A stretch of 64,000 nucleotides of DNA from Halobaculum rubrum. GTDB taxonomy: Archaea; Halobacteriota; Halobacteria; Halobacteriales; Haloferacaceae. Below are positions 15,745 to 63,858 of the stretch, piece after piece. Made by a program: the position numbers and the translations under genes. Position 1 is the first letter of the stretch, and every line of letters starts with the position of its first letter. The DNA lies in contig NZ_CP082284.1 in NCBI RefSeq assembly GCF_019880225.1, positions 1,364,001 through 1,428,000 of the forward strand, written 5' to 3'. The notes under the pieces are model-generated. The model saw only the letters and a list, made by a program, of their open reading frames with translations. It did no database searches and had not been told where the DNA came from.

Positions 15745-15765
15745 ACCCCCTTGTTTCGTGTGGAA
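15745..15765 (-). promoter_or_regulatory. ORB-like sequence near tRNA-Gln (Orc1 binding candidate)
   Basis: On the minus strand this reads TTCCA-CA-CGAAAC-AA-GGGGGT. It differs at one of 17 fixed positions from the ORB pattern seen at the origin at 35 kb. It lies in the 210-base gap between the CNNM/CorC-type gene and tRNA-Gln. No AT-rich stretch or second inverted ORB accompanies it, so it is not a complete origin. Confidence 0.55.
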
Positions 15766-34863: not shown

Positions 34864-34884
34864 ACCCCTCTGTTTCGTGTGGAA
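34864..34884 (-). promoter_or_regulatory. Origin recognition box (ORB), left, inverted
   Basis: On the minus strand it reads TTCCA-CA-CGAAAC-AG-AGGGGT, followed by a G-rich tail (GGGGGTG). It faces away from the AT-rich segment. It matches the ORB pattern exactly. Confidence 0.9.
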
Positions 34885-35047: not shown

Positions 35048-35068
35048 TTCCACCGGAAACGAAGGGGT
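35048..35068 (+). promoter_or_regulatory. Origin recognition box (ORB), right
   Basis: It reads TTCCA-CC-GGAAAC-GA-AGGGGT, one mismatch to the pattern, followed by GGGGGGG. It is the inverted partner of the left ORB across the AT-rich region. Confidence 0.9.
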
Positions 35069-35489: not shown

Positions 35490-35510
35490 TTCCAGTCGAA
35501 ACAAAGGGGT
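35490..35510 (+). promoter_or_regulatory. Third ORB, in the orc1 leader
   Basis: TTCCA-GT-CGAAAC-AA-AGGGGT, an exact match to the ORB pattern, ends 12 bases before the orc1 ATG. Binding of Orc1 here would block or regulate its own transcription. Confidence 0.85.
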
Positions 35511-35521
35511 ACAAGAGACCG

Positions 35522-37351
35522 ATGACACGGGACGACGAACCGGAACACAGTTCGAACGACGGCGGAACCGACGACCGGTCGGAGGCGACGGTGAACTCCG
35601 ACGAAAACAACGACTCCACCCGAAGTGACGGACGGTCGTCCGACTCCGGGAGCGGCGGCTCGGGAATCGAGTCCGAGTCGGACACGGAACCGGAATCTGC
35701 CCCCACTGTACCCTCCGCCGCGGACGATGACGGCGGGAAAAGCGGCGATCACGACGGCGATATCGGTCAGGACGCTAGCGGCGACACCGATCGGAACGCT
35801 GACGGCGACACCGATCGGAACGCTGACGGCGACACCGATCGGAACGCTGACGGCGACACCGATCTCGATGCGGGTGGAACGTCATTCGACTTCGGGTCCG
35901 GGTCGCGGTCGCGAACGGACGTCGATCTCGACGTCGACGAGGTACTCGCGGACGAGGACGACGAAGCGAGCACCGGATTGTTCGACGACCTCCTCTCCGG
36001 CGAGCCTATCTTCGAGAACAAGGAGGTGCTTCGTCCCTCGTACACGCCCCACGAGCTTCCCCATCGGAAAGACCAGATCAACAAGATGGCGACGATTCTC
36101 GTGTCCGCACTGCGCGGGGAAACGCCGTCGAACATCCTCATCTACGGGAAGACGGGGACGGGGAAGACGGCCTCGGCGAAGTTCGTCTCCCAGGAACTCG
36201 AGTCGACCAGTCAGAAGTACGACGTTCCCTGTGAGGTCGAGTACATTAACTGCGAGGTGACGGACACCCAGTACCGCGTGCTCGCACAGCTCGCGAACAA
36301 GTTCATCGAGAAGAACGAACGAGTCATCGACGATCGCCTCGACGACCTCCGCGACCTCCGTTCGACGGCTGCCGACGACGACAGAGCGCTCGAGGGGACC
36401 GAGTTCGCCTCCGTCGCCGATGTCGACGAGCGTATCGCCGACCTCGAGTCGGATCGCGAAGAGATGCAGGAAGTACCGATGACGGGATGGCCGACGGACC
36501 GCGTCTACTCGACGTTCTTCGACGCCGTCGACTATCACGAGCGCGTCGTCGTTATCATGCTCGACGAGATCGACAAGCTCGTCGAGAAATCCGGCGACGA
36601 CACGCTGTACAACCTCTCGCGGATGAACTCTGAACTGACCAACTCACGCATCTCCATCATGGGGATCTCCAACGACCTGAAGTTCACCGACTTCCTCGAC
36701 CCCCGTGTCAAGTCGAGCCTCGGGGAGGAAGAGATAGTCTTCCCGCCGTACGACGCCAACCAGCTGCGAGACATCCTCCAGCACCGGTCGGACATCGCGT
36801 TCAAGCCCGACGCCCTCACCGAGGACGTGATACCGCTGTGTGCCGCCTTTGCCGCGCAAGAACACGGGGACGCCCGGCGCGCGCTGGATCTCCTGCGCAC
36901 CGCGGGCGAACTCGCCGAACGCTCGCAGGCAGACCTCGTCGAGGAGGCACACGTCCGACAGGCACAGGACAAAATCGAGTTGGATCGCGTCGTCGAGGTG
37001 GTGCGTACGCTCCCGACGCAGAGCAAGATCGTCCTCTTTTCGATCATCCTCCTCGAGCAGAACGGCGTTCACAACGTCAACACCGGCGAGGTGTTCAACA
37101 TCTACAAGCGGCTCTGTGAGGAGATCGACGCCGACGTGCTCACCCAGCGTCGGGTGACCGATCTCATTTCGGAACTCGATATGCTGGGGATCGTCAACGC
37201 GGTCGTCGTCTCGAAGGGCCGCTACGGCCGAACGAAGGAGATCTCCCTGTCCGTCCCGATCGACGAAACCGAGGCCGTTCTCCTCTCGGATTCCCGTCTC
37301 GGGGACATCGAGGACGTCCAGCCGTTCGTCCAGGCCCGGTTCGACAACTGA
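35522..37351 (+). CDS. orc1: Origin-binding replication initiator Orc1/Cdc6
   Basis: 609 residues. An acidic, disordered N-terminus of about 150 residues contains copies of the octapeptide DTDRNADG. The AAA+ core follows: Walker A YGKTGTGKTAS at about 208, Walker B VVIMLDEIDK at about 345, sensor 1 IMGISNDL and sensor 2 GDARRALDLLRTAGE. A winged-helix DNA-binding domain ends the protein (LLEQNGVHNVNTGEVFNIYK). It is long because of the tail. The frame opens earlier (35396), but the ORB at 35490 and the sequence DDEPEHSS support ATG at 35522. It binds ORBs and loads MCM. Confidence 0.95.
   Translation: MTRDDEPEHSSNDGGTDDRSEATVNSDENNDSTRSDGRSSDSGSGGSGIESESDTEPESAPTVPSAADDDGGKSGDHDGDIGQDASGDTDRNADGDTDRNADGDTDRNADGDTDLDAGGTSFDFGSGSRSRTDVDLDVDEVLADEDDEASTGLFDDLLSGEPIFENKEVLRPSYTPHELPHRKDQINKMATILVSALRGETPSNILIYGKTGTGKTASAKFVSQELESTSQKYDVPCEVEYINCEVTDTQYRVLAQLANKFIEKNERVIDDRLDDLRDLRSTAADDDRALEGTEFASVADVDERIADLESDREEMQEVPMTGWPTDRVYSTFFDAVDYHERVVVIMLDEIDKLVEKSGDDTLYNLSRMNSELTNSRISIMGISNDLKFTDFLDPRVKSSLGEEEIVFPPYDANQLRDILQHRSDIAFKPDALTEDVIPLCAAFAAQEHGDARRALDLLRTAGELAERSQADLVEEAHVRQAQDKIELDRVVEVVRTLPTQSKIVLFSIILLEQNGVHNVNTGEVFNIYKRLCEEIDADVLTQRRVTDLISELDMLGIVNAVVVSKGRYGRTKEISLSVPIDETEAVLLSDSRLGDIEDVQPFVQARFDN
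35780..35865. repeat. 24-bp tandem repeat in the orc1 N-terminal region
   Basis: Units beginning GGCGACACCGAT start at 35780, 35804 and 35828, with a partial fourth at 35852. They encode repeats of DTDRNADG and keep the frame. Confidence 0.9.
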
Positions 37352-38481: not shown

Positions 38482-38520
38482 GATCTGTTTGGTATCACCG
38501 CGACCATGGATCGCATGGTC

Positions 38521-38645
38521 GACACCGCCGACACCCCTGAAACCGCCGACACCCCGAAACCCCCGACACCCCTGAAACCGCCGACACCCCTGAAACCGCC
38601 GACACCCCGAAACCCCCGACACCGCCGAAACCCCCGACACCGTTC
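38521..38645. repeat. Array of 17-18-bp repeats (ACCGCCGACACCCC type)
   Basis: About seven copies of GACACCCCTGAAACCGCC and its variant GACACCCCGAAACCCCC follow each other. If read in the frame of the next gene they would give Pro/Thr/Lys repeats, but a promoter (38659-38670) separates them from the true start codon, so they are taken as non-coding. Confidence 0.85.
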
Positions 38646-38694: not shown

Positions 38695-40287
38695 GTGCCG
38701 CTGGAGACGTCCTCCCGAGTCGTGCAGGCGCTCACCCGTCGCGGGTACAACGCCGAACGGGAGGCCGTTACGCTCATTGCCGAGTCGGAGACGCCGGAAC
38801 TCGCTCTCGAAGCGGCTATCGAGACCGCGCCCGGGGACGCACTCGTCCTCACCGCGGATCACGTCCGTGAGGCGCTCGAAACCGACCCCGTTCCGGACCC
38901 CGAACAGATCGACGACGGGACACGATCGCCCGAGTCGACTGCCGCCACGTCCTCGGCGACGGACCCCGAGACCGATCACTCCGGCTCCTCCGTTTCGACT
39001 GGAGCAACGGGAAGAGAATCACCACACGATACCGGACCGGTTCCAAGCGAAACGGAGGGGTCCGCGGTCGGCGATCGATCCCCGAAGACGCCCGTCGTCG
39101 CGAACGATATGACCGGCGCGTCGACGGGGACGGGAGCCTACGACGAGTTCGTGGGCGTGTTCCGCGACCGGTACGAGCGGCTCTCCGGACAGCTTCGGGG
39201 TCGCGTCAACCATCGCCCCGCCGACTCCATCGAGGCGATGGGCGGCGGCGCTGACGTGGAGACGATCGGCCTCGTCAACGACATCCGGTCGACCGCATCG
39301 GGCCACTGGCTCATCGAGTTGGAGGACACCACGGGGACGTTCCCGTGTCTCGTGATGAAGGACCGCGACTTCGCGGACCTGGTCGACGAACTGCTGCTGG
39401 ACGAGTGTATCGCCGTGTCGGGGACGCTCGCGGACGACGCGGGCATCGTCTTCGTCGACGCGATCCACTTCCCGGACGTTCCCCGCACGTACCGCCCGAG
39501 CACCGCTGACCGCCACGTACAGGCGGCGCTGATCTCCGACGTGCACGTCGGCTCACAGGAGTTCCTCGCCGACGCGTGGGGTCGGTTCGCCGACTGGCTC
39601 CACACGGAGGAGGCCGAACACGTCGAGTATCTCCTCCTCGCGGGAGACATGGTCGAGGGCGTCGGTGTCTACCCGGGCCAGGACGAGGAGCTCGACATCG
39701 TCGACATCTACGAGCAGTACGAGGCCTTCTCGGAGCACCTCAAGGCGGTGCCGGGCGACATGGAGGTCGTGATGATCCCCGGGAACCACGACGCGGTTCG
39801 ACTCGCCGAACCCCAGCCGGGATTCGACGAGGAGCTTCGGGAGATCATGAGCGCCCACGACCCGCAGATCGTGAGCAACCCCGCGATGGTCAACGTGGAG
39901 GGTGTGAACGTCCTCATGTACCACGGCGTCTCTCTCGACGAGGTGATCGCCGAACTGCCGGAGGAGAAGGCCAGCTACGACGAGCCGCACAAGGCGATGT
40001 ACCAGCTCCTCAAGAAACGACACGTCGCTCCGCAGTTCGGCGGGAAAACCCGCGTCGCCCCGGAGGAGCGCGACTACCTCGTCATCGACGAGGTGCCGGA
40101 CGTGTTCCACACGGGGCACGTCCACAAGCTCGGCTGGGGAAAGTACCACAACGTCCTCGCGGTCAACTCCGGCTGCTGGCAGGCCCAGACCGACTTCCAG
40201 AAGTCGGTCAACATCGACCCCGACGTCGCCCACGCGCCGATCCTGGACCTGGACACGCTCGACATGACGGTTCGGAAGTTCACCTGA
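38695..40287 (+). CDS. polD1: DNA polymerase D small subunit DP1 (exonuclease subunit)
   Basis: 530 residues from GTG at 38695 (VPLETSSRVVQALTRRGYN). An N-terminal helical domain is followed by an acidic Ser/Thr-rich linker (about 65-150), an OB-fold (ETIGLVNDIRSTASGHWLIELEDTTG) and a calcineurin-like phosphoesterase domain. All phosphoesterase motifs are kept: ISDVHVGS, AGDMVEGVG, PGNHDAVR, MYHGVS and HTGHVHKLG, so 3'-5' exonuclease activity is expected. DP1 partners the large subunit DP2, which is not in the window. An ORB-like sequence lies in the linker-coding DNA at 39041. Its position beside oriC1 is shared with other haloarchaea. Confidence 0.94.
   Translation: MPLETSSRVVQALTRRGYNAEREAVTLIAESETPELALEAAIETAPGDALVLTADHVREALETDPVPDPEQIDDGTRSPESTAATSSATDPETDHSGSSVSTGATGRESPHDTGPVPSETEGSAVGDRSPKTPVVANDMTGASTGTGAYDEFVGVFRDRYERLSGQLRGRVNHRPADSIEAMGGGADVETIGLVNDIRSTASGHWLIELEDTTGTFPCLVMKDRDFADLVDELLLDECIAVSGTLADDAGIVFVDAIHFPDVPRTYRPSTADRHVQAALISDVHVGSQEFLADAWGRFADWLHTEEAEHVEYLLLAGDMVEGVGVYPGQDEELDIVDIYEQYEAFSEHLKAVPGDMEVVMIPGNHDAVRLAEPQPGFDEELREIMSAHDPQIVSNPAMVNVEGVNVLMYHGVSLDEVIAELPEEKASYDEPHKAMYQLLKKRHVAPQFGGKTRVAPEERDYLVIDEVPDVFHTGHVHKLGWGKYHNVLAVNSGCWQAQTDFQKSVNIDPDVAHAPILDLDTLDMTVRKFT
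39041..39061 (+). promoter_or_regulatory. ORB-like sequence inside the DP1 gene
   Basis: TTCCA-AG-CGAAAC-GG-AGGGGT matches all 17 fixed positions of the ORB pattern. It lies in the part of the gene coding for the disordered linker, 4 kb right of the origin and in the same orientation as the right ORB. Confidence 0.6.
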
Positions 40288-63837: not shown

Positions 63838-63858
63838 TTCCAGTCGAAACCAAGGGGT
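63838..63858 (+). promoter_or_regulatory. ORB-like sequence at the right end of the window
   Basis: TTCCA-GT-CGAAAC-CA-AGGGGT matches all 17 fixed ORB positions and differs by one base in 21 from the ORB in the orc1 leader. It lies 67 bases after ilvA, in a 229-base stretch that continues beyond the window. TCTATATGAAC (63891) is a nearby TATA-like element. No gene is supported in 63772-64000. Confidence 0.65.

Follow-up and report, generated by a model that had tools for sequence, protein, structure and literature searches.

The question raised by polD1 of Halobaculum rubrum, which encodes the DP1 subunit of Pol D, is why its coding sequence contains an ORB of the type found at the replication origin oriC1, and whether this element has been maintained as DNA or as protein. 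The window analyzed herein is a continuous stretch of 64,000 nucleotides (64 kb). A first-pass annotation had reported an exact ORB at 39041-39061 (+) in the DP1 gene, approximately 4 kb from oriC1, and we confirmed that the sequence TTCCAAGCGAAACGGAGGGGT at this position is an exact match to the ORB pattern TTCCANNNGAAACNNAGGGGT. The pattern was used in its 16-position form, which we regard as the right one because the 17-position version with CGAAAC misses the genuine oriC1 ORB at 35048, which reads GGAAAC. Eight matches with three or fewer mismatches were found in the window against 0.13 expected from dinucleotide shuffles. The 3.06-Mb genome contained five exact matches and one with a single mismatch, all six of which were located inside the window, and a reversed control pattern gave no match in the whole genome. 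These six sites comprise three at oriC1 and orc1 (34864 (-), 35048 (+), and 35490 (+)), one in polD1, and two orphan intergenic sites (15745 (-) and 63838 (+)). The suggestion that the polD1 site was a lone fourth Orc1 site did not hold in view of these orphan ORBs and of a partner at 38984-39004 (-) in the same gene, which had been overlooked because this arm has three mismatches in H. rubrum.

The DP1 linker thus carries two inverted ORBs, the starts of which are separated by 57 bp, or 19 codons. Each is built on the TTCCA-N3-GAAAC core followed by AGGGG that is typical of the ORBs at oriC1, and the two are divergent with their GGGG ends pointing outward, as at oriC1, an inverted pair being one of the features by which replication origins are recognized. 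The coordinates of these elements are listed in Table 1.

Table 1. ORBs and associated genes in the H. rubrum window.
Feature	Position	Strand	Remarks
Orphan intergenic ORB, 1 mismatch	15745..15765	-	beside tRNA-Gln; approximately -20 kb from oriC1
oriC1 left ORB	34864..34884	-	pattern match; with G-string
oriC1 right ORB	35048..35068	+	pattern match; with G-string
Third ORB, upstream of orc1	35490..35510	+	pattern match; without G-string
orc1 (oriC1-type Orc1/Cdc6 initiator)	35522..37351	+	NF001625, 652 bits; TIGR02928, 469 bits
polD1 (DP1) coding sequence	38695..40287	+	PRK04036.1-1 (NCBIfam), 960 bits, residues 1-530 on profile 1-530; GTG start inferred from homology
(-) ORB of DP1 pair, CTCCAGTCGAAACGGAGGAGC	38984..39004	-	3 mismatches in H. 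rubrum; 0-2 in all 10 genus relatives
Spacer between DP1 ORBs, 36 bp	39005..39040	.	AT 0.42 here, not AT-rich; mean 0.34 over 49 loci
(+) ORB of DP1 pair, exact	39041..39061	+	codons GTT CCA AGC GAA ACG GAG GGG T; kept in relatives
Orphan intergenic ORB, exact	63838..63858	+	downstream of threonine ammonia-lyase gene; approximately +28 kb from oriC1

The DP1 gene of each of the 11 genomes of the genus carried the ORBs in the order minus then plus, at exactly 57 bp and in one common frame, each site having 0-2 mismatches in all 10 relatives of H. rubrum. Among 81 loci (80 relatives and the window), at least one DP1 site within two mismatches was present in 74 and both sites were in 39. The spacing, where both sites had three or fewer mismatches, was 57 bp in 43 loci, 54 bp in three, 69 bp in two, and 72 bp in one, always a whole number of codons, and the arrangement recurred in the same frame across haloarchaeal families. 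Since the 80 relative loci were selected by similarity to the H. rubrum DP1, which may have biased the sample, 16 haloarchaeal genomes, chosen without regard to the linker in a draw spread evenly across the phylum, were used as a control; the pair was found at 54 or 57 bp in 12 of them, the (+) site lay within two mismatches in 11, and a clear (+) site occurred alone in one. Both ORBs were missing from the DP1 genes of two genomes in this draw (L131 and L132), which are natural controls for the function of the sites. No pair pattern was found outside the order to which the window belongs in a search of 158 genomes across the phylum, on which the statement of its absence outside haloarchaea mainly rests; no comparable pair was present in those DP1 genes from outside haloarchaea for which anchoring succeeded, the anchor motif having failed for many.

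The degree of conservation differed among genera. Halorubrum had the (+) site only, the spacing in Halobellus was 69 bp, and the sites of Haloferax and Halolamina were weaker. The Haloarcula sampled had perfect or near-perfect pairs, two species being perfect (L016 and L020), whereas several sampled Haloferax pairs were degenerate, a contrast that is suggestive only. The minus sites of the Haloferax DP1 genes (L030-L062) have TTGCA in place of TTCCA, and the same variant is present in an ORB of the oriC1 region of several Haloferax (e.g., L038:6125), which perhaps reflects co-variation with the specificity of Orc1.

An ORB within a gene may be conserved simply because the encoded peptide is conserved, and the linker motif (PSVSTG...PVETEGS), which is recognizable across genera, would then spell the ORBs by chance. 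To separate protein from DNA, sites were located by codon positions 1 and 2 only, and the third base was compared at each locus with the expectation from local codon use for the same amino acid. The third base was the ORB base in 622 of 645 cases, about 178 being expected (310 of 322 against 90 in the (-) site and 312 of 323 against 88 in the (+) site); the sequences are related by descent and these statistics cannot be treated as independent, but the genera clearly agree with one another. The even-draw genomes gave matches of 62/77 (-) and 65/78 (+). The first-pass annotation had named synonymous drift in close relatives as the result that would speak against a binding site, and such drift was absent: third bases in the 10 genus relatives matched in 50/50 (-) and 49/50 (+) cases, or 99/100 together. 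The wobble base was also fixed where the residue varies (GTT/GCT/ACT, GGA/GCA/CCA, and GAG/AAG/GGG). When the same peptide was recoded synonymously according to local codon use, the natural pair was not matched in 31 of 33 genera (P<0.001); locations in this recoding test were picked by best match, which introduces a bias that the test based on codon positions 1 and 2 removes. A cluster of rare codons was considered and rejected because it would not fix one particular base, and the AT-ending wobble positions hold one specific base (T in 64/65 and A in 65/65). With third bases fixed against codon bias, even when the residue changes, an explanation at the protein level is already contradicted and we consider it extremely improbable. 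The DP1 ORB pair is kept by purifying selection at the DNA level, which suggests an unrecognised job of the initiator at polD1.

Selection on nucleotides may also act through RNA, and the two arms, being reverse complements, may form a hairpin in the polD1 mRNA. The identity of the arms at variable positions was slightly higher than that in shuffles (0.569 vs 0.516), an excess to which shared ancestry can give rise; however, the same change was present in both arms in only 18 of 221 motif-deviating cells, mostly at position 1, at which C is also common at oriC1, and there was no pattern of compensatory change. Furthermore, Halorubrum has kept the (+) arm and not the (-) arm. Since the arms vary independently, an RNA hairpin is very unlikely.

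The binding partner of the pair is most readily sought by a comparison with oriC1. The DP1 motif equals the core of the haloarchaeal oriC1 ORBs (TTCCA-GAAAC-AGGGGT) position by position, and the divergent arrangement with the G-ends outward is also the same; therefore, Orc1 is the natural candidate, and we predict from this identity that it is very probably the binder. On the other hand, the DP1 pair is intragenic and its spacing is 54-72 bp against 180-337 bp at oriC1. The extended G-string after AGGGGT was found in only 3 of 98 DP1 sites, but in 124 of 124 oriC1 sites, and the spacer had an AT content of 0.34, close to the locus mean of 0.35, against 0.50 between the oriC1 ORBs. The DP1 sites also differ in having GT at positions 6-7 and, in the (-) site, usually G at position 15. 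These differences may indicate lower affinity or binding by another Orc paralog. Haloarchaea have many Orc paralogs, and the consistent small differences together with the lack of the G-string are what would be expected if such a paralog, or another regulator recognizing the ORB core, occupied the pair. All fixed core positions nevertheless match the oriC1 ORBs, and the specificity of ORBs for their own Orc family has been reported (PMC3528665); a binder other than Orc1 appears improbable.

A secondary origin at DP1 was rejected, the pair having neither an AT-rich spacer nor a G-string and being located inside polD1, not directly adjacent to an orc/cdc6 gene. Since the G-string is essential for the autonomous replication of oriC1 in Haloarcula hispanica (PMC3936714) and is absent at the DP1 sites, origin activity is unlikely, and the pair is probably not an origin. 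It may instead belong to an extended oriC1 as an architectural or helicase-loading site bound by Orc1, with a role in looping, chromosome segregation, or secondary loading. The divergent orientation common to both loci and the distance of 3.2-6.9 kb between the pair and oriC1 in 62 loci are consistent with such a role, which is weakened by the same two deficiencies and by the survival of the pair far from oriC1, and we rate it as improbable.

The distance between DP1 and oriC1 is 3-7 kb in most genera, approximately 4 kb in H. rubrum, but is approximately 13, 37, 80, 85, and 130 kb in Natronomonas, Natrarchaeobius, Halosegnis, and two Halorarius species, in which the pair is very well kept in the same host gene. 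The nearness to oriC1 noted in the first-pass annotation is, thus, not a property on which the pair depends. Its retention at 13-130 kb argues for a role at polD1 and against an extension of oriC1, and leaves room for titration, in which the pair and the orphan ORBs, replicated soon after initiation, would soak up Orc1 and damp re-initiation at oriC1. The ORBs of H. rubrum are found only around oriC1, orphan ORBs lie within tens of kb in other genomes too, and there is a precedent in oriC2D of H. hispanica, a locus away from the origin that was proposed to act through the initiator by titrating Cdc6E (PMC3936714). However, oriC2D is intergenic, contains 11 ORBs for Cdc6E, and lies beside the gene for this protein, whereas DP1 has one oriC1-type pair inside polD1 and not a dense cluster. 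The datA locus of Escherichia coli, which titrates DnaA as far as it is described in PMC3936714, similarly consists of non-origin initiator sites, but involves another initiator in another domain of life, whereas the DP1 pair is located within a replication gene and conserved across the class. Moreover, titration does not explain the fixed host gene and the 57-bp geometry across families, nor the retention of the pair at 80-130 kb from oriC1. We consider titration to be possible, but rather unlikely.

We tentatively favor the reading, which we hold at somewhat less than even probability, that the DP1 pair is an Orc1 (Cdc6A) site serving as an intragenic operator that controls polD1. Two Orc1 molecules would bind with the GGGG ends outward as at oriC1, and the DNA would stay unopened without a G-string or AT-rich spacer. 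The bound pair would constitute an operator approximately 290 bp into polD1, which may restrain or time its transcription according to the level or state of free Orc1, and the supply of Pol D would thereby follow initiation. The least certain part, in which we have slightly less confidence, is that the pair controls polD1 in cis and does not act by titration or in chromosome architecture. Halorubrum with its (+) site only and the two sampled genomes missing both sites also count against the operator.

A broader proposal gives Orc1 a second role in the regulation of Pol D, the dual-coding operator coupling polymerase supply to origin licensing and explaining a vital role of Cdc6A independent of oriC1; this is possible, but doubtful. 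In H. hispanica, cdc6A was far harder to delete than oriC1, leading the authors to infer that it serves a vital function beyond oriC1 (PMC3936714); the DP1 pair is a candidate for the site of this function. In Halobacterium NRC-1, the oriC1-type orc7 was dispensable and polD1 was essential (PMC1906834), and, thus, control of polD1 by Orc1 cannot be indispensable in all genera. Orc1-2 of Sulfolobus, a regulator of transcription in response to DNA damage as far as PMC9738581 describes it, provides a precedent for the action of an archaeal Orc-family protein on gene expression; it is a non-initiator paralog, whereas the predicted binder of the DP1 pair is the initiator of oriC1.

The open-licence literature searched contained no mention of ORBs within polD1, and a description elsewhere is possible. 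Published predictions of haloarchaeal origins covered intergenic regions beside orc/cdc6 genes (PMC3528665; PMC4595724), and intragenic ORBs would, therefore, have escaped them. The base-level conservation of the intragenic pair is real and the pair is apparently undescribed. It would tie the initiator, as the binder predicted from the motif, physically to Pol D, and offers a concrete place to look for a function of Cdc6A independent of oriC1. It also represents a case in which the amino acid sequence of a replication enzyme is shaped by a DNA site, and the function of the pair may be tested by synonymous recoding alone in tractable haloarchaea.

Several other features of the window were observed. 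Directly upstream of the DP1 start, tandem low-complexity repeats of the CCGACACCCC(T)GAAACC type occupy 38520-38645; the frame stays open through them (ORF from 38506), but coding is unlikely. The third ORB of the oriC1 region ends 11 bp ahead of the likely ATG of orc1, a placement that suits autoregulation and makes it a possible autoregulatory site, and a comparable ORB to the right of the oriC1 pair is present in most relatives. ORBs at 6-60 kb from oriC1 all point outward in the genus (19/19), but this was not counted as evidence because it reflects only about two orthologous site groups, and other genera gave 25/36. The orphan ORBs at 63838 and 15745 each form an orthologous site group across much of the genus, in which their neighbors, threonine ammonia-lyase and tRNA-Gln, respectively, are conserved.
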